A DNA stretch of 26,354 nt, taken from positions 1 to 26,354 of the IMG/VR virus record IMGVR_UViG_3300035670_001108; one strand, written 5' to 3'. A program made the translations under genes and the position numbers. The notes beneath the pieces were generated by a model. That model was not told the origin of the DNA and did not search any database. It saw only the letters and a list, made by a program, of their open reading frames with translations. Each line of letters opens with the position of its first letter. The first letter of the stretch is position 1. Below are positions 1,265-7,081 of this stretch, piece after piece. Source of the DNA: a virus.

Positions 1265-1579
1265 TCACTCAGCCCGGGCGGCAGGGCGCGGGCCTCGCGG
1301 GCGGCCAGCGCGTCGGCGGCTGGGCATCAGCGCAGCGTGCACCGCGGGGGCCAGGGCTTCAACCAGGCCCAGGACCTCCACCAGGCGGGCCACGGCGGCG
1401 GGGGGCGTGCGGGTGCCGTTCATCCACTTGCGCAGCGTCGGGTCGGGTGCGCCCAGGTATGCGGCCAGGCCGGGGACAGACAGGCCCAGGCGGGCCCGTA
1501 GCGATTCCAGGTCGGCGGGGCTAGGGGTAGGGCAGGGGGTGGTGGTTTCGTGGCCGTGGTGGCTGGTTTCGTTGGTCAT
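1265..1579 (-). CDS. XRE-type helix-turn-helix regulator
   Basis: This 104-residue protein has a helix-turn-helix domain at about residues 24-72: LRARLGLSVPGLAAYLGAPDPTLRKWMNGTRTPP, then AVARLVEVLG. LAAYLGAP-DPTLRKW is the expected helix-turn-recognition helix. The N-terminus is His/Thr/Pro-rich and the C-terminus is Arg/Pro-rich (SRRRAGRPRGPRP), possibly giving extra DNA affinity. A single-domain protein of this size fits a phage repressor, a Cro-like protein or an antitoxin-type regulator. It is the last gene of the minus operon but is separated from it by an intrinsic terminator (1601-1625), so its expression may depend on read-through or an unseen promoter. GGAG lies upstream of the ATG in a leader shared with other genes of this operon. 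Confidence 0.8.
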   Translation of the reverse strand: MTNETSHHGHETTTPCPTPSPADLESLRARLGLSVPGLAAYLGAPDPTLRKWMNGTRTPPAAVARLVEVLGLVEALAPAVHAALMPSRRRAGRPRGPRPAARAE

Positions 1580-1600
1580 GGTTTCAATCTCCAGGGGGTT

Positions 1601-1625
1601 AAAAAGCCCGGCGCGGTGGCCGGGC
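1601..1625 (-). terminator. Intrinsic terminator or attenuator upstream of the regulator gene
   Basis: Read on the minus strand, GCCCGGC (1625-1619) pairs with GCCGGGC (1612-1606) around a 6-nt loop and is followed at once by TTTTT (1605-1601). It lies between the stop of the 1645-1866 gene and the start of the regulator gene. The same 7-bp stem occurs at 3978-3995 in the leader of another gene, there without a T-tract. Confidence 0.75.
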
Positions 1626-1644
1626 GGGTTAAGGGTGGCCGGGG

Positions 1645-1866
1645 TCAGTCCCTGGCCACTATTGCAGCGATGCTCTCCAGGCGGTCCAGGCAGTCGTCAC
1701 CAGTCGGGGGTAGATCCGGGCTCACGTCGGCCAGGGCCTGGACCTCGCGCAGCTGGTCGGCCCGGGTGGCCAGGCGGCCAGATAGAAACCGGGTAAATGG
1801 GTTTTCCATGCTCTCAGCGGCGCGGATCAGCTCCCGGTCGGTCATGCTCGAATGATAGAAAGTCAT
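1645..1866 (-). CDS. Small conserved phage protein, unknown function
   Basis: The 73-residue product begins MTFYHSSMTDRELIRAAESMENPFTRFLSGRLA. The start at 1866 is favoured over the internal ATG seven codons later because a very strong GGAGGAGGTGA sequence precedes it and the ATG overlaps the upstream stop (ATGA). The sequence is helical and charged, without membrane segment or metal motif. The MTDRELIRAAE... core is of a type seen in small phage early proteins, without known role. It is the last coupled member of the operon before the terminator at 1601-1625. Confidence 0.78.
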   Translation of the reverse strand: MTFYHSSMTDRELIRAAESMENPFTRFLSGRLATRADQLREVQALADVSPDLPPTGDDCLDRLESIAAIVARD

Positions 1867-2126
1867 GGGTTCACCTCCTCCAGGCAGAGCGGGGTTACGG
1901 GGTCATAAAACGCAGCTTCGCGGGCCAGGGTGTCGGGGTCGTAGTCCCGGAAAATCAGCCCTTGTTGCTCGGCCTGGGGGTTCATGCCACGAAAGCGGCG
2001 GATGTATTCGCCCGTGGTCATGCCCGGGATAAATTTGGGATAGAACCGGGTCGGGGGCGTGCGCTTCTCGCGGCGCAGCGCGGCCATATAAGCGGCGATT
2101 TTCTTTTTTTGGTCGGGGGTGTTCAT
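1863..2126 (-). CDS. Small basic phage protein, unknown function
   Basis: This 87-residue protein (MNTPDQKKKIAAYMAALR...) has a basic N-terminal helix (KKKIAAYMAALRREKR) and a more acidic C-terminus with DYDPDTLAREAAFYDP. The middle contains YPKFIPGMTTGEYIRRF. No family is recognised with confidence. The N-terminus could bind nucleic acid, but this rests on charge alone. It overlaps its neighbours on both sides by ATGA, so it is co-translated with them. Confidence 0.75.
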   Translation of the reverse strand: MNTPDQKKKIAAYMAALRREKRTPPTRFYPKFIPGMTTGEYIRRFRGMNPQAEQQGLIFRDYDPDTLAREAAFYDPVTPLCLEEVNP

Positions 2127-2383
2127 GGTTTCAGGCTTTCAATGAGTTGCAGGGCGTTTTGTAAATCGGTGTCATCAGCGGCGGGGTGTGTGAGTCGCTG
2201 CAGCGCTTTTAACAGGTCGGGCGCGGCAGCAATTAGGCGAGCGTTAGATTGCATCTCGGGGTTTTTTTCGCCCAGCACATATGCGATTGCACTGTCGTCG
2301 TATGGGATTCGAATTGACCAACCGCAACTAATGATTCTTTGATGCGGGCCAATATTCCATGGGCCCGGTGTGTGTTGTGTCAT
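2123..2383 (-). CDS. HTPGPW-type small phage protein (copy B)
   Basis: This 86-residue protein begins MTQHTPGPW and contains SNARLIAAAPDLLKALQRL at about residues 46-64, so it belongs to the same family as the plus-strand gene at 233-562. The N-terminal and central blocks are shared; the linker between them and the C-terminus differ. Having one copy in each of two opposed operons suggests old duplication or separate acquisition. Function is unknown. The gene starts 4 nt after the stop of the Cys-rich gene and overlaps the next gene by ATGA. Confidence 0.85.
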   Translation of the reverse strand: MTQHTPGPWNIGPHQRIISCGWSIRIPYDDSAIAYVLGEKNPEMQSNARLIAAAPDLLKALQRLTHPAADDTDLQNALQLIESLKP

Positions 2384-2387
2384 GGTG

Positions 2388-3068
2388 TCAGGCTTTCACG
2401 ATAGGGATTACTCGGCGGGCTTTGGCATCGGTCACCCTGGCGCGGGTGCCATGGGCGCGGAATCCGATAATCACCCCGCGGTCGGGGCGCGCGCACAGTT
2501 GGCACGTAACGCAGCTCACGCCCTCGCGGGTTTGCGCGGGGCATACGATAACGGTGCGCCCGGCTGGGGTGTAGGTTTTCTCGGGTGTATCGCTGGGGAC
2601 AATGGCGCAGACTGGCCCGGCTTCGGTGTCGGCCAGGGCGTCGGCTTCGCCCACGTCATCGGCGCTCAGGTTAACGGTAAACCCCCAGGCGTTGGCGTGG
2701 TGGATCCACTCCAGGGCTTCGGGGGTTTTCTTGTGGGTGTAAGTAAACCCCCGGCGGCCAGCGTTGGCGGCCACTATTTGACCCAGGGCCGCGGGGTCCA
2801 GTTCTTCCCCCTGGCCGGGCAGGTCTCCGGCGATATTCATGCGCCATAGTTGGCCAGCAGGCAGAGCGGCAATGCTCGCGCAAAGCTCGCCCAGGGATCC
2901 CCCGCGGGCGGGGACCTTATCCCATGCCAAGCGGGTAAGAAAATCCTCGGCATAGCAATCGGCCCGGTAGTGCGGGCAGCTCGGGGGGCAGGTCTCGCGC
3001 TGGGAATAGGTCACGGGGATCGGCCCGGTTTTCCGGTTTGCGCTCGAATGGATAAAGTGGTATTTCAT
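2388..3068 (-). CDS. Cys-rich DUF7227/Gp88-like phage protein
   Basis: This 226-residue protein is the largest in the minus operon. Cysteines fall in two groups: C27-x3-C31-x6-C38 (TCPPSCPHYRADCYA) and C176-x9-C186-x2-C189-x2-C192 (VICPAQTREGVSCVTCQLC), with further C63 and C154. Other conserved-looking blocks are QLWRMNIAGDLPG (73-85), RRGFTYTHKK (105-114), GFTVNLSADD (129-138) and GVIIGFRAHG (198-207). I recognise this layout as the phage gene-88/DUF7227 type, widespread in phages and plasmids and uncharacterised. Two clusters of this kind suggest a bound metal or Fe-S centre; that is inference. A GAGGAAAA ribosome binding site precedes the ATG, which overlaps the upstream gene by 4 nt. Confidence 0.82.
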   Translation of the reverse strand: MKYHFIHSSANRKTGPIPVTYSQRETCPPSCPHYRADCYAEDFLTRLAWDKVPARGGSLGELCASIAALPAGQLWRMNIAGDLPGQGEELDPAALGQIVAANAGRRGFTYTHKKTPEALEWIHHANAWGFTVNLSADDVGEADALADTEAGPVCAIVPSDTPEKTYTPAGRTVIVCPAQTREGVSCVTCQLCARPDRGVIIGFRAHGTRARVTDAKARRVIPIVKA

Positions 3069-3325
3069 AGTTGGTTTTCCTCGTGGTTATCCCATGCAAT
3101 CGTCAATTCATCAGCGGCCCAGGTTTTGGCCCACTGGTCGGCGGCTGGGTCTCTTAATGTCTTGATGGCCCAGGCGATGGCGTCGCCCAGGGGCAGCGGC
3201 TCGCGGTAATTGTCAGCATCGGGGTGCGGGGTGGCCGGGTTTTGGGTAAACGGGCGGCGCGGCGCCTGGCCCACATGCACGATTGTGAAGTGCTCGCGCA
3301 TGAATTTAGCGTCAATGGGGTTCAT
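3065..3325 (-). CDS. Small phage protein, unknown function
   Basis: The 86-residue product begins MNPIDAKFMREHFTIVHVGQAPRRPF and ends DELTIAWDNHEENQL. The centre is Pro/Asp-rich (NPATPHPDADNYREPLPLG) and the C-terminal third looks helical (GDAIAWAIKTLRD...WAADELTIAW). No domain, membrane segment or metal motif is seen. It is embedded in the operon by ATGA overlaps on both sides, the main support that it is expressed. Confidence 0.75.
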   Translation of the reverse strand: MNPIDAKFMREHFTIVHVGQAPRRPFTQNPATPHPDADNYREPLPLGDAIAWAIKTLRDPAADQWAKTWAADELTIAWDNHEENQL

Positions 3326-3537
3326 AGTGCGCCCCGCTGCAGCAGGTTTGCCAGATCCTGGCCGCCATGCTTACCGATCCAACCGGTACCGATCCACCCC
3401 CACTGGGTCTTTTCAATAAGGATCCGGTTCTCGCCCCACTGAAGAGATAAGAACGTTACCCCGTCGGCGTTGGCTTTTTTAATCGCGGCCTTGATGGTCA
3501 CGATGCTGGGTTTGCGGGTGTAGTCAATCTCGCGCAT
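3322..3537 (-). CDS. Small phage protein, unknown function
   Basis: This 71-residue protein (MREIDYTRKPSIVTIKAAIKKANADG...) has a basic helical N-terminal half and a Trp-rich C-terminal part with SLQWGEN, TQWGWIGTGWIGKHGG and DLANLLQRG. The ATG at 3537 is chosen; a TTG two codons upstream (3543) would overlap the previous stop and is a possible alternative start. The run of G residues 8 nt upstream is a poor ribosome binding site, so coupling to the preceding gene is likely. No family is recognised. Confidence 0.7.
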   Translation of the reverse strand: MREIDYTRKPSIVTIKAAIKKANADGVTFLSLQWGENRILIEKTQWGWIGTGWIGKHGGQDLANLLQRGAL

Positions 3538-3539
3538 GA

Positions 3540-3845
3540 TCAAACCCCCCGGCGAGCGCTCACGCGCACGGTGGAAAAGGGTGTACCGGTTTCGGTGAAT
3601 TCCTCCACCAGGGCAGGCGTGGCGCCCAGGTGCTCGGCCAGTGCTCGCCAGTTGATGATCACGCGGCCAGGGCAGTGTGAAACGGCAGCGCGGTACTTGT
3701 CGCCTTCCACGGCTTCGGCGCCGGACAGGATCAGCGCTCCCTTGAAAATCTCGGCTTCGGTTTCCAGGTCGGCAATTTTGGCCTTGATCGCGCCCAGGCG
3801 GTCGGCAGCAAATCGAAGATCGATAGCGGGATTTGGGGTTTTCAT
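3540..3845 (-). CDS. Coiled-coil phage protein of a common early-gene family
   Basis: The 101-residue product has an N-terminal coiled coil (residues about 10-38: FAADRLGAIKAKIADLETEAEIFKGALI), then EAVEGDKYRAAVSHCPGRVIINWRALAEHL and FSTVRVSAR. Many phages encode proteins of this plan (an AxIAxLE helix, a G-D-x-Y-x-A-x-x-S strand, a W/Y-x-A-L-x-E helix) in their early or recombination region, without proven role. GGAGATGATGAC precedes the ATG, giving a good ribosome binding site within the leader element shared by several genes of this operon. Confidence 0.78.
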   Translation of the reverse strand: MKTPNPAIDLRFAADRLGAIKAKIADLETEAEIFKGALILSGAEAVEGDKYRAAVSHCPGRVIINWRALAEHLGATPALVEEFTETGTPFSTVRVSARRGV

Positions 3846-3862
3846 GTCATCATCTCCAGGGG

Positions 3863-3958
3863 TTAAAAAGTCAGAATGTCGAAATAGGCCAGCGCTAGGG
3901 GCAGCAGGATCAGGGCGGCCGCGGTGGCCTGGGTCAGTTCGATTAAAAAGCGTTTCAT
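3863..3958 (-). CDS. 31-residue membrane microprotein
   Basis: A short frame reads MKRFLIELTQATAAALILLP, then LALAYFDILTF. After a basic start, residues about 9-27 form one continuous hydrophobic stretch, fitting a single transmembrane helix. TGGAGATGAGACC before the ATG supplies a ribosome binding site, and the gene fits exactly between its operon neighbours, its TAA lying in the TTTTTAACCCC element that leads into the next gene. Function is unknown. The call rests on the ribosome binding site, position and hydrophobicity because the protein is so short. Confidence 0.6.
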   Translation of the reverse strand: MKRFLIELTQATAAALILLPLALAYFDILTF

Positions 3959-3977
3959 GGTCTCATCTCCAGGTGGT

Positions 3978-3995
3978 GCCCGGCTCTCGCCGGGC
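3978..3995 (-). promoter_or_regulatory. Leader hairpin with GAGA tetraloop
   Basis: Read on the minus strand, GCCCGGC pairs perfectly with GCCGGGC around the loop GAGA (a GNRA-type tetraloop). It lies between the stop of the 4004-4189 gene and the ribosome binding site (TGGAGAT) of the microprotein gene. There is no T-tract, so it is probably not a terminator. It could stabilise or mark an mRNA processing point. The same 7-bp stem is used at 1606-1625. Confidence 0.6.
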
Positions 3996-4003
3996 GGGGT
4001 TAA

Positions 4004-4189
4004 TCAAACGATAAAGTCGGGCAGGTGCACCAGGTCCAGGCTCACGGCTCGCTGCATTAGCTCGAATGAGGTAGCGCGGCTACGGGTGGCGCGGATCAGG
4101 GCAGACAGCGAGCGGGCGGCGGTGTCGCGCATGCCCAGGGTCATCAGGGTTTCGATTTTTTGCAGCTCGCGGGCTTCGCTTTTGGTCAT
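4004..4189 (-). CDS. First gene of the minus operon; small helical phage protein
   Basis: The 61-residue product is MTKSEARELQKIETLMTLGM, then RDTAARSLSALIRATRSRATSFELMQRAVSLDLVHLPDFIV. The start at 4189 is chosen over an upstream ATG at 4237 because AGGAG lies 8 nt before it and the extra 16 residues would run into the promoter-like sequence. The protein is basic and helical; similar KSEAR... AARxLSALIRA proteins occur in phage early operons with no assigned role. It is the promoter-proximal gene, so it would be the first made from the leftward promoter. Confidence 0.75.
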   Translation of the reverse strand: MTKSEARELQKIETLMTLGMRDTAARSLSALIRATRSRATSFELMQRAVSLDLVHLPDFIV

Positions 4190-4227
4190 GTCATCAGCTC
4201 CTAGGTTAACGGCTCGATTTTGTGGCC

Positions 4228-4240
4228 GTGGGTGCATTGT
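4228..4240 (+). repeat. 13-bp direct repeat (copies 4228-4240 and 4329-4341)
   Basis: GTGGGTGCATTGT occurs at 4228-4240 and 4329-4341, in each case followed by TCCAATGGGTC. The gap to the second motif is 14 nt in the first copy and 2 nt in the second; the first has an additional 12 nt containing part of the promoter. This looks like a duplicated operator-promoter unit. Confidence 0.85.
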
Positions 4241-4266
4241 AACATAACTCTAGTCCAATGGGTCAA
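4236..4266 (-). promoter_or_regulatory. Candidate sigma70-type promoter for the minus operon
   Basis: On the minus strand a -35 box TTGACC (4266-4261) and a -10 box TACAAT (4241-4236) are separated by 19 nt. The -10 is preceded by TGT, making an extended -10 (TGnTACAAT) that would tolerate the long spacer. The -35 lies within a copy of the repeated motif (CCAATGGGTCA on the plus strand, 4255-4265), so a protein bound there would affect this promoter directly. The predicted transcript starts just upstream of the 4004-4189 gene. Confidence 0.6.
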
Positions 4267-4308
4267 CAATTATTTACTAGGTGCTTTCCCTTATGGTTTC
4301 CCGGGTTC

Positions 4309-4328
4309 TGGGTGGCCATGGGTGGCCA
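4309..4328 (+). repeat. Tandem 10-bp repeat
   Basis: TGGGTGGCCA is repeated exactly, head to tail, at 4309-4318 and 4319-4328, and is followed by GTGGGTGC. GGTTCTGG words also recur just outside it (near 4303, 4358 and 4365). Confidence 0.8.
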
Positions 4329-4379
4329 GTGGGTGCATTGTGTCCAATGGGTCCAGGGTTCTGGGGTTCTGGATTTGTT

Positions 4380-4485
4380 GCAGTGACAAACTGTCTCAAA
4401 ACGTACATATGCAAAAAGATTTCTAGTGCTTTTAAAAAAGTCGTTTAGAAAATCGCTCGCCGGCGCGGAGACAGTTTGTCACTGC
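4380..4485. repeat. 18-bp perfect inverted repeat around an AT-rich core
   Basis: GCAGTGACAAACTGTCTC (4380-4397) and GAGACAGTTTGTCACTGC (4468-4485) are exact reverse complements, 70 bp apart. The spacer is AT-rich, with CAAAAAG, TTTTAAAAAAG and TTTAGAAAATC. The inner ten bases CAGTTTGTCA appear a third time at 4553-4562, next to a CCATTGGGTCA site. The layout fits two binding sites flanking a melting region or promoter; the long spacer makes a terminator unlikely. Confidence 0.85.
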
Positions 4486-4588
4486 TTCCGGCGTTTTCGC
4501 AGCTCCCGTGTTCCAGTGGGTCATCAATTACAGAAACCCCCGGCCATTGGGTCAGTTTGTCAATAGTCCAATGGGAAAGCCGGTCCGC

Positions 4589-4604
4589 TGGGTCAGTTGA
4601 CCCA
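4589..4604. promoter_or_regulatory. 16-bp operator-like palindrome
   Basis: TGGGTCA-GT-TGACCCA is a perfect palindrome with 7-bp arms and a 2-nt centre. It is formed by two head-to-head copies of the repeated TGGGTCA core, as expected for a site bound by a symmetric dimer. The repressor-like protein at 1265-1579 is one possible ligand; no direct evidence links them. Confidence 0.65.
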
Positions 4605-4958
4605 ATGGCCCCCGGTTTCCGGTCAATCAATGCCTGGCCATTGGGTCAGATCCCTTTACATAATGGTCATCGGTTAAAGTCGCCTCGGCCACTGGGTCAC
4701 CGGTGGCCATGCCGTGGCCCTGGGTGGCCAGGCTTCCCCCGGCGCCCTGGCCCCCGCGGTGCGCTTCCCCTAGCCCCGGCCTGGCCCGGTGGCCAGCGGC
4801 AGGGGGGCGTGGGGCCCCAAGTCCGGCGGCGGATATTGACAGGGGAGGTATCCCAGACACCGGGATTCAAAAATCAAAATGAAAACCCAATGGACAACCT
4901 AGACACTCAGCCCCAAAAAATTCCAAAAAATTTTGAAATTCCAATTTCCAACTCGAAC

Positions 4959-4967
4959 TGATACACT
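4959..4967 (+). promoter_or_regulatory. Possible extended -10 element before the terminase genes
   Basis: TGATACACT fits the extended -10 pattern TGn followed by a hexamer matching TATAAT at four of six positions. It ends only 6 nt before the ATG at 4974, so any transcript starting from it would be nearly leaderless. No convincing -35 box is seen at the usual distance. Weak candidate. Confidence 0.25.
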
Positions 4968-4973
4968 GCCCCC

Positions 4974-5549
4974 ATGAACCAAGACACTCCCCTTCAGACG
5001 GAGGTCATGCCATCGTGGCTGATCCCCGAAGACAAGGATGTCGATCCCGACAATCCTGATACCCGTGCTCAACAATCGCACGCACAACTCGTCGCTGAGG
5101 GAAAACGGGCGAGGTTGCACCTCGACTCGATTGCCTACGAGGCGATCTTCGAGCGTGCCCTGCTTGACATTGCCGCAGGTCAGCCCCTGAGCGCAACCCT
5201 CGAAGCCGATCACCGCTCCATCGACTACCACCGGTTTCTGGCGTGGGTCCACAAAGACGAGAACCGTAAAGCCCAGTACTACCAGGCCCAGGAGATCGGC
5301 GCCGAGGTCGTGGCCGCGCAGATGCTGGAGATCGCGGACGCCGATGACACGCTTGAAGATGTCCAACGCTCGACCCTGCGCATCAACACCAGGAAGTGGT
5401 TGCTGGGTGTGTGGAACAGGAAACGGTTTGGCGAGGTCAAGCAGATCGAGCAGAACGTCACCATTGACCTGGGCGAGGCCATGGCCCAGGCCCAGGCTCG
5501 GGTGGACAACAGGCGCACCGTCGACGTGACCGCCAGAGAGATCCCATGA
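4974..5549 (+). CDS. terS: Terminase small subunit
   Basis: This DNA-recognition component of the packaging motor has 191 residues. Residues about 59-105 (FERALLDIAAGQPLSATLEADH... RFLAWVHKDENRKAQYYQA) form the helix-turn-helix part; 116-125 (MLEIADADD) and 131-154 (RSTLRINTRKWLLGVWNRKRFGE) match the oligomerisation region of Sf6-type small terminases. An in-frame TGA at 4959-4961 excludes any earlier start. There is no Shine-Dalgarno sequence before ATG 4974; the next ATG (5007) has GGAGGT only 1 nt away, too close to work well. The gene overlaps the large subunit by ATGA, the usual arrangement. Family call firm, start less so. Confidence 0.88.
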   Translation: MNQDTPLQTEVMPSWLIPEDKDVDPDNPDTRAQQSHAQLVAEGKRARLHLDSIAYEAIFERALLDIAAGQPLSATLEADHRSIDYHRFLAWVHKDENRKAQYYQAQEIGAEVVAAQMLEIADADDTLEDVQRSTLRINTRKWLLGVWNRKRFGEVKQIEQNVTIDLGEAMAQAQARVDNRRTVDVTAREIP

Positions 5550-7081
5550 AGCAAGGACCCAGTAAGAACGAGCAGTCGCTGATCACACAGCTGCTGCAGT
5601 ACAAGTACGACCCGCTGGGCTTTGCCCTGTATGCGTTCCCCTGGGGCGTCAAGGGCACACCGCTGGAGAAGCTCGACGGCCCACGCTCGTGGCAGCGGGA
5701 CGAGTTCCAGCGCATCGGGGACCACCTGATGCTCGACCTGGAGAAGCAGCGCATCGGGCTACCCCCGACGCCCGTGTACCTGTCCATCTCGTCTGGCCGG
5801 GGGATCGGTAAGAGCGCGTGGCTCTCGATGCTCGACGTCTGGGTCATGAGCTGCTGGCTCGGGGCCACGACGATCGTGACCGCCAACACCGAAAAGCAGC
5901 TGGTCAGTCGTACCATGGCCGAGCTGGGTAAGTGGCACACCATGTCCATCAACTCCCACTGGTTCGACAAGAGCAGCACCGCGCTGCGCCCGACCAAGTG
6001 GTTCTCCGAGCTCGTGCAGCAGCAGCTCAAGATCGACACCCAGTACTACTACGTCGACGCACAGTCGTGGTCCGAAGAGAACCCGGACGCGTTCGCCGGT
6101 GCCCACAGCCAGATCGGCATGATGGTCCAGTTCGACGAAGCCTCCGGTATCCCTGACCCGATCTGGCAGGTGACCGAGGGGTTCTTTACGGACCTGGCCC
6201 CCTTGAGGCTGTGGCTGGCGATCTCGAACCCGCGACGCAACACCGGGCGGTTCTTCGAGTGTTTCCACAAAGACCGGGCGTTCTGGGAGAACCGGTACGT
6301 AGACTCGCGCACCGTCGAAGGCGTGGACGGTGGGGTCTATCAACGCATCGCCGACAAGTACGGCGAAGACCACGACGTCACCCGAGTCGAAGTCAAGGGT
6401 CAGTTCCCCAGGACCGGCTCGAACCAGTTCATCGGACGCGACACCGCGGACACAGCCGCAGCCCGTGAGCTGGTCGAAGACAGCGGAGCGCCCCTGCTCA
6501 TGGCCGTGGACGTGGCCCGGTTCGGCGACGACGAGAGCGTGATCCGCTGGCGCCGGGGACGCGACGCCCGCACAATGCCCGCCACGAAGATGCGCGGCGT
6601 GGACACCATGGAGCTGTCCTCCCGCGTAGCAGCGCTCATCGATAAGCACAACCCGGACGCCGTGTTCGTGGACGGCGGCGGCGTCGGCGGCGGGGTGGTC
6701 GACCGTCTCAAGCAGCTGGGCTACCGGGTGATCGAGGTGCAGTCCGGCGAGAAGGCCGAGGACGCCGACAAGTACCTGAACAAGCGAGCCGAGATGTGGG
6801 GCGAGATGCGCGAGTGGTTGTCCATCGGGTGCATCGACAACGATCAGGCCCTGATTGACGACCTGACCGGACCGGAGTACAGTATCCACCTCAAGGGGCA
6901 GATCAAGCTGGAGACCAAGGACTCCATGAAGAAGCGAGGTCTGGCCTCCCCAGACGATGCCGATGCACTGGCCCTGACGTTCGCCCAGCGTATTGCACGC
7001 CTGGACGGGGGGATCAACAAGCGCATGGCTCGTATGGCTGGCAGGGTCGCAGACAGCGACTATGATATATTTTCCACGTGA
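5546..7081 (+). CDS. terL: Terminase large subunit (packaging ATPase and nuclease)
   Basis: This 511-residue motor protein drives DNA into the prohead and cuts the concatemer. The N-terminal ATPase has Walker A SGRGIGKSA (83-91) and Walker B MMVQFDEAS (192-200; D197, E198). LAISNPRRNTGRF (224-236) fits the coupling region after Walker B. The C-terminal RNase H-like nuclease shows three acidic sites: D322 in AVDVARFGDDES, D376 in AVFVDGGGVGGG and D471/D472 in SPDDADALAL. All key residues are present, and the length is normal for a podovirus TerL. The start overlaps terS by 4 nt. Family alone does not settle headful versus cohesive-end packaging. Confidence 0.97.
   Translation: MKQGPSKNEQSLITQLLQYKYDPLGFALYAFPWGVKGTPLEKLDGPRSWQRDEFQRIGDHLMLDLEKQRIGLPPTPVYLSISSGRGIGKSAWLSMLDVWVMSCWLGATTIVTANTEKQLVSRTMAELGKWHTMSINSHWFDKSSTALRPTKWFSELVQQQLKIDTQYYYVDAQSWSEENPDAFAGAHSQIGMMVQFDEASGIPDPIWQVTEGFFTDLAPLRLWLAISNPRRNTGRFFECFHKDRAFWENRYVDSRTVEGVDGGVYQRIADKYGEDHDVTRVEVKGQFPRTGSNQFIGRDTADTAAARELVEDSGAPLLMAVDVARFGDDESVIRWRRGRDARTMPATKMRGVDTMELSSRVAALIDKHNPDAVFVDGGGVGGGVVDRLKQLGYRVIEVQSGEKAEDADKYLNKRAEMWGEMREWLSIGCIDNDQALIDDLTGPEYSIHLKGQIKLETKDSMKKRGLASPDDADALALTFAQRIARLDGGINKRMARMAGRVADSDYDIFST

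Follow-up and report, generated by a model that had tools for sequence, protein, structure and literature searches.

What is the function of the repeated TGGGTCA motif that lies between two divergent gene blocks of an uncultured bacterial virus? The window analyzed here, 26,354 bp long, is a complete IMG/VR virus record in which the gene blocks run leftward from about 4.2 kb and rightward from 4974. An earlier note on this DNA read the motif as an iteron-like array of protein-binding sites at 4255-4699 and proposed a master switch or a replication origin. Our analysis indicates that the array is probably a group of operators for an MqsA/Aca-like XRE regulator encoded by the phage itself, forming an early/middle-to-late transcription switch that acts through host RNA polymerase. 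We found no description of such an array in the literature, in a search that covered open-access papers and was not exhaustive. The genes and predicted promoters surrounding the array are the following.

1265 to 4189, minus strand: leftward operon of small genes, with a DUF7227 gene (2388-3068) and the XRE gene at its end
1265 to 1579, minus strand: XRE/HTH regulator, the proposed ligand and last gene of the leftward operon (PF13560, phrog_2104; AlphaFold pLDDT 85.5)
4236 to 4266, minus strand: leftward promoter predicted from sequence, with -35 TTGACC (4266-4261), a 19-bp spacer and -10 TACAAT (4241-4236)
4959 to 4967, plus strand: predicted late promoter with the extended -10 TGATACACT (TGnTAnnnT in relatives), 6 nt ahead of the terS start codon
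4974 to 5549, plus strand: Sf6-like terminase small subunit gene terS, first gene of the late operon (PF20901, 64.2 bits)
5546 to 7081, plus strand: terminase large subunit gene

The rightward late operon has the order terS, large terminase, portal, capsid and tail. The leftward operon probably starts at the ATG at 4189 instead of the listed 4237, because the promoter -10 overlaps the 4237 ATG (listed open reading frame 4004-4237); the ATG at 4189 is preceded by AGGAG. A DUF7227 gene was also present in the leftward operon of a number of relatives, among them the group without the XRE, and a short open reading frame at 878-1096 of the window encodes an NrdR-like zinc ribbon slightly under the Pfam cut-off. 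Fuller relatives showed the general plan, which comprises leftward replication genes (exonuclease, SSB, DNA polymerase and SNF2 helicase), a rightward Prim-Pol, the XRE operon in leftward orientation, then the array, and finally the late operon in rightward orientation. A near-identical phage was not found in the phage collection, and phage DSL-LC05 (OR003940, Dishui Lake metagenome) is the one named record with the same layout. No tyrosine integrase (PF00589) was detected in 12 records, and no XRE relative was confirmed across 84,980 bacterial and archaeal species genomes scanned; these phages therefore look lytic, with no prophage sign.

TGGGTCA occurred 7 times at 4259-4699 (445 bp) and 7 times across the rest of the record (26 kb). 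Dinucleotide shuffles gave an expectation of 4.75 for the whole window, and the Poisson p of the cluster was 6.5e-11. Six copies in the array lie on the plus strand and one, at 4598, on the minus strand. With the shorter TGGGTC, eight copies were counted in the array region, in agreement with the original count of at least eight, one of them inverted. The exact sequence CCANTGGGTCA was present in 6 copies in the record, every one inside the array region. The motif proved to be half of a dyad, ACCCANTGGGT, with the extended form TRACCCANTGGGTYA, i.e., a 15-bp dyad TRACCCA-N-TGGGTYA. Since relatives carry full palindromes in the same region, including perfect dyads such as TGACCCAATGGGTCA in G003 and L009, the "free fourth base" described for the motif can be identified as the dyad axis. 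Nine dyads with a core match of at least 8/10 were located between 4251 and 4897, all of them worn forms with one strong half each and two mismatches from the core (8/10). The clustering reported earlier was thus confirmed, whereas its end at 4699 was not: the array continues for about 200 bp, up to 4897, adjoining terS. The sites and a second conserved element within the array are listed below, the dyads and the element without strand.

4251 to 4265: dyad 1, TAGTCCAATGGGTCA, core 8/10, full 11/14; over the leftward -35, with the same placement in relatives
4322 to 4336: worn dyad GTGGCCAGTGGGTGC, core 8/10
4340 to 4354: dyad GTGTCCAATGGGTCC, core 8/10
4380 to 4485: second conserved element, a perfect 18-bp inverted repeat whose arms (4380-4397 and 4468-4485) flank an AT-rich and a GC-rich stretch
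4509 to 4523: dyad TGTTCCAGTGGGTCA, full 12/14
4540 to 4554: dyad CCGGCCATTGGGTCA, core 8/10
4585 to 4595, plus strand: half-site CCGCTGGGTCA, beside the inverted copy
4598 to 4612: dyad TGACCCAATGGCCCC, the inverted copy, full 11/14
4634 to 4648: dyad CTGGCCATTGGGTCA, core 8/10
4685 to 4699: dyad TCGGCCACTGGGTCA, full 11/14
4883 to 4897: last, terS-proximal dyad AAACCCAATGGACAA, past the end first reported; the corresponding dyad of relatives is helically phased with the late -10

We drew relatives from IMG/VR in three ways, using the terminase, the motif alone (111 contigs) and the XRE sequence alone (165 confirmed). An unbiased palindrome scan of 121 terS leaders, covering all 5-base half-sites with gaps of 0-4, returned ACCCAnTGGGT as the top palindrome in most of them. 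Many of the 111 contigs retrieved with the motif were members of the same phage group and had terS, XRE and Prim-Pol close by; many others contained just two or three sites, apparently chance matches. In the motif-blind retrieval with XRE, the array was located 1.5-4 kb upstream of XRE and beside terS in nearly all contigs that were long enough upstream to include the leader. Enrichment in the leader had a p of 2e-8 or less in six of the eight genomes tested (1e-5 and 5.5e-4 in the weakest two), and in most genomes the dyad density outside the leader was near that of shuffled sequence. The position of the array was conserved across relatives. Thus, the motif was neither equally frequent in coding DNA nor displaced in related phages, the two results named at the outset as counting against its significance, and the conserved dyads support its interpretation as a predicted protein-binding site. 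It is common to two deep TerL clades, the L219-type and the window-type (about 45-50% TerL identity to the window). MW202898 has no array. Close relatives L011, L012 and L014 share GCTAACA repeats and contain few canonical dyads, though their known XREs have Lys at the recognition position considered below.

The XRE protein is predicted to be the best candidate ligand of the dyads, given its linkage to the array, the covariation of a lysine residue with the motif, its MqsA-like fold and site geometry, and the placement of sites at both promoters; the earlier suggestion that the 1265-1579 product is the cognate protein therefore appears likely. The window XRE passed HTH_31 (PF13560) with 33.1 bits against a cut-off of 27. 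The PDB neighbors of its model or profile were HigA2, Aca10, Aca2 and the DNA-binding domain of MqsA, with weak Foldseek E-values for the model (0.008 at best). Against the MqsA family TIGR03830, whose model combines a CxxCG zinc part with an HTH, it scored 16.4 bits, below the cut-off of 61.8, and the match spanned the HTH part only (model positions 66-116). MqsA binds ACCT(N)3AGGT, extended to TAACCT(N)3AGGTTA, via Asn97 and Arg101 (PMC4901048). The extended MqsA operator and the phage site TAACCCANTGGGTTA share one geometry and a frame of 15 bp. Lys51 of the window XRE presumably aligns with the DNA-contacting Arg101 of MqsA; TIGR03830 and the PDB matches independently back the relation of the two proteins, not this exact residue alignment.

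The residue at the Lys51 position was Lys in 89, Asn in 19 and Gly in 1 of 109 leaders. Among 93 leaders chosen without reference to the motif, at least four near-perfect dyads were present in 64 of the 74 Lys-type leaders and in none of the 19 non-Lys leaders (Fisher p 7e-13), and nine or ten of the 74 Lys-type leaders showed weak arrays. Leaders of the Asn-type XREs had other motifs or none, and the same was true for the RNW/RNY or RGW lineages, e.g., CCCCAnTGGGG in L015. If XRE is the ligand, the L015 protein is expected to prefer CCCCANTGGGG. On the TerL tree, the Lys position changed at least four separate times, and by the stricter count the motif followed and never opposed the change, four changes being too few for a significant sign test after correction for descent. 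The 30 XREs, when pooled, were too diverse for one scanning profile. Separately, in the clade of L219 and L326-L338, whose XRE recognition helix reads VSTWRNW, the leader repeat differs (CATTGnnnCAATG / GTCAATGG).

As noted earlier for this locus, one copy covers the -35 box of the predicted leftward promoter: the dyad at 4251-4265 overlaps TTGACC. This arrangement, TTGACCCA..N19..TAnAAT, recurred in 11 of 80 leaders, and in 27 of the 80 a dyad lay between TTGACA and the -10, inside the spacer. Neither arrangement was found in any leader of the shuffled-flank control. A simple sigma-70 scan did not pick up the leftward promoter with its 19-bp spacer. The position of the outermost dyad in the promoter of the XRE operon suggests that XRE represses its own operon.

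At the other end of the array, the terS promoter of relatives combined a weak -35 with an extended -10 (TGnTAnnnT) that precedes the ATG by a few bases. The center of the last dyad lay 32-36, 42-45 or 51-54 bp (about 33, 43 and 53) upstream of this late -10; the dyad, at 28-58 bp, was clear of the -35 and -10 boxes. Across 39 sequence clusters, these distances were phased at 10.5 bp (R=0.75; Rayleigh p 3e-10), and with stricter clustering (21 clusters) the p was 4e-5. The controls were flat, with R=0.22 for the next dyad upstream and R=0.16 for jittered distances. On the TerL tree, at least 22 interchanges among the three spacing classes were counted. The window fits the series imperfectly, since its last dyad lies 72 bp from the -10 and is out of phase by about 2 bp. 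We also observed that the late -10 ends 6-10 nt before the terS ATG (4962-4974 in the window; terS starts of relatives), and thus, judging from the sequence, the late mRNA may be nearly leaderless.

A site on one helical face, at varying distance and clear of the promoter boxes, is what an activator requires, and we therefore read XRE as a dual regulator. The phasing is what points to activation of the late genes, and a looping repressor could need phase too. Host polymerase would start at the 4266-4236 promoter and transcribe the leftward operon first, with XRE as the last product of this operon. XRE dimers would then bind the dyads TRACCCANTGGGTYA. Since the outermost dyad lies in the leftward core promoter, binding there would shut the operon off in a negative feedback, and XRE on the last dyad would recruit polymerase from one fixed helix face, thereby switching on the genes for the terminase and the structural proteins. 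The inner dyads may add cooperativity or looping. With sites at both predicted promoters and dyads that follow promoter geometry, the idea of a master switch between the two operons is supported.

The same sites could be bound by XRE for repression of both operons only, as an Aca- or Cro-like damping with no late activation. An HTH gene at the end of its operon with an inverted repeat in the core promoter is the arrangement of Aca systems (PMC9410906), Aca2 and Aca10 are among the structural neighbors, and the outer dyad covers the leftward promoter. However, the last dyad is off the boxes of the late promoter and moves in a 10-bp series, which is odd for blocking, and the late -35 is weak. 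We consider repression by itself doubtful.

A replication origin was the other function suggested by the earlier note, with the sites as iterons for an initiator such as the Prim-Pol or helicase and the AT-rich element at 4380-4485 as the unwinding region. The element is conserved within the array: most relatives have a version of about 105-115 bp, with inverted arms GTGACAA.../...TTGTCAC around AT-rich and CGCGC-rich stretches. These phages also encode Prim-Pol, DNA polymerase and SSB, and there is a precedent in NrS-1 Prim-Pol, which requires an 8-nt template motif (PMC7102993). However, the sites are dyads found in both orientations in relatives and not asymmetric direct repeats, at odds with the iteron-like label. 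They track promoter geometry, and the motif changes along with the XRE recognition residue. Furthermore, the GC skew did not invert consistently at the array in four circular genomes; the detrended skew had an extremum near terS in G009 and G012 (maximum) and G008 (minimum) but not in G011. An origin formed by the array is improbable. The 4380-4485 element itself is possibly an origin or the site of a second regulator. Its arms matched their own partners better than those of other elements (0/5000 permutations), a result confounded by descent that could equally reflect two inverted protein sites. Rfam returned nothing that reached the gathering score. An RNA hairpin was rejected; the fold is strong (z about -6.5) on both strands, and the consensus fold of 29 elements retained just 7 pairs. 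Arm units TTGTCACA recurred outside the element in L013, L023, L034 and L036.

The array adjoins an Sf6-like terS, and several contigs end near it, as would be expected of a packaging site (pac/cosB) whose dyads are bound by the neighboring small terminase. However, TerS diverges to 35-45% identity between the clades and the motif stays unchanged; the presence of the motif in two deep TerL clades likewise speaks against TerS as the recognizing protein. The outer dyad lies in a promoter, and array repeats by themselves can break assemblies. The breakpoints of several near-complete contigs lie away from the array, and 123-bp repeats were found at the ends of G009, G012 and G016, which means that the array does not mark fixed ends; a cos site was rejected on the same disagreement of contig ends. 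Packaging is thus a quite improbable function. It is highly improbable that the sites serve a host regulator, since the motif varies with the recognition residue of the phage XRE, although TGGGTCA repeats also occur in a more distant group without the window-type XRE (G015/G017, TerL about 50% identical), where they form no dyad. In G015 (L081; 21392-21786) and G017 (L119; 16598-16999), 7-10 such repeats (TTTGGGTCATTT/GC) are located in the same leader.

The operator switch of XRE remains the preferred reading. More tentatively, a large group of Prim-Pol podovirus-like phages, nearly all of them uncultured, might share this early-late switch, with a phase-locked dyad, a co-evolving residue and operator, and a looped complex that is possibly coupled to replication. 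Here, an MqsA/Aca-like HTH protein would repress its own operon and activate the late promoter, and the inner sites and the inverted-repeat element would form the loop. The proposed switch offers a testable transcription program for a common phage group known almost only from metagenomes. The natural variants, Lys or Asn at one recognition position and three spacing classes, are material for the study of regulator and operator co-evolution. Should XRE prove to be Aca-like, the small genes in the same operon would be candidates for anti-defense functions. With the array as a marker, members of the group can also be detected and their orientation assigned.

We compared the array with known regulatory systems. 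Phage DSL-LC05 shares the gene order and the inverted-repeat element and has dyads in each of the two promoters, and its XRE is annotated as "repressor protein C"; its TerL is 46% identical, and the words "operator", "promoter" and "repeat" are all absent from the text of its paper. Mycobacteriophage cluster A stoperators also consist of many copies of a phage repressor site. Stoperators are asymmetric and scattered genome-wide (PMC9283540), in contrast to the symmetric dyads here, which are limited to one leader and show no such scatter. MqsA/TIGR03830 is similar in its HTH and in the operator geometry ACCT(N)3AGGT (PMC4901048), whereas XRE lacks the zinc-binding domain, falls below the family cut-off and has other bases inside the dyad. 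Anti-CRISPR-associated (Aca) autorepressors such as Aca2 and Aca10 are likewise small HTH proteins from operons of small genes with an inverted repeat in their own core promoter (PMC9410906), and the window has an HTH gene in such an operon with an inverted repeat inside its predicted core promoter. However, Aca promoters have one or two sites, as opposed to far more sites and a second, late-gene promoter here, and the likeness concerns the gene arrangement and the inverted repeat, no acr gene having been identified. The p4 protein of phi29 represses the early promoters A2b and A2c and activates the late promoter A3, which has a poor -35, from sites between them and with host RNA polymerase (PMC3100819). 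It has its own fold and CTTTTT-15-AAAATG sites, neither of which was found here, where an XRE HTH fold, the dyad ACCCANTGGGT, 5-15 sites and a presumed activity take their place. Nevertheless, p4 is the closest system in logic, with one protein and several inverted-repeat sites between early and late promoters, an arrangement that the window reproduces with its predicted promoters.
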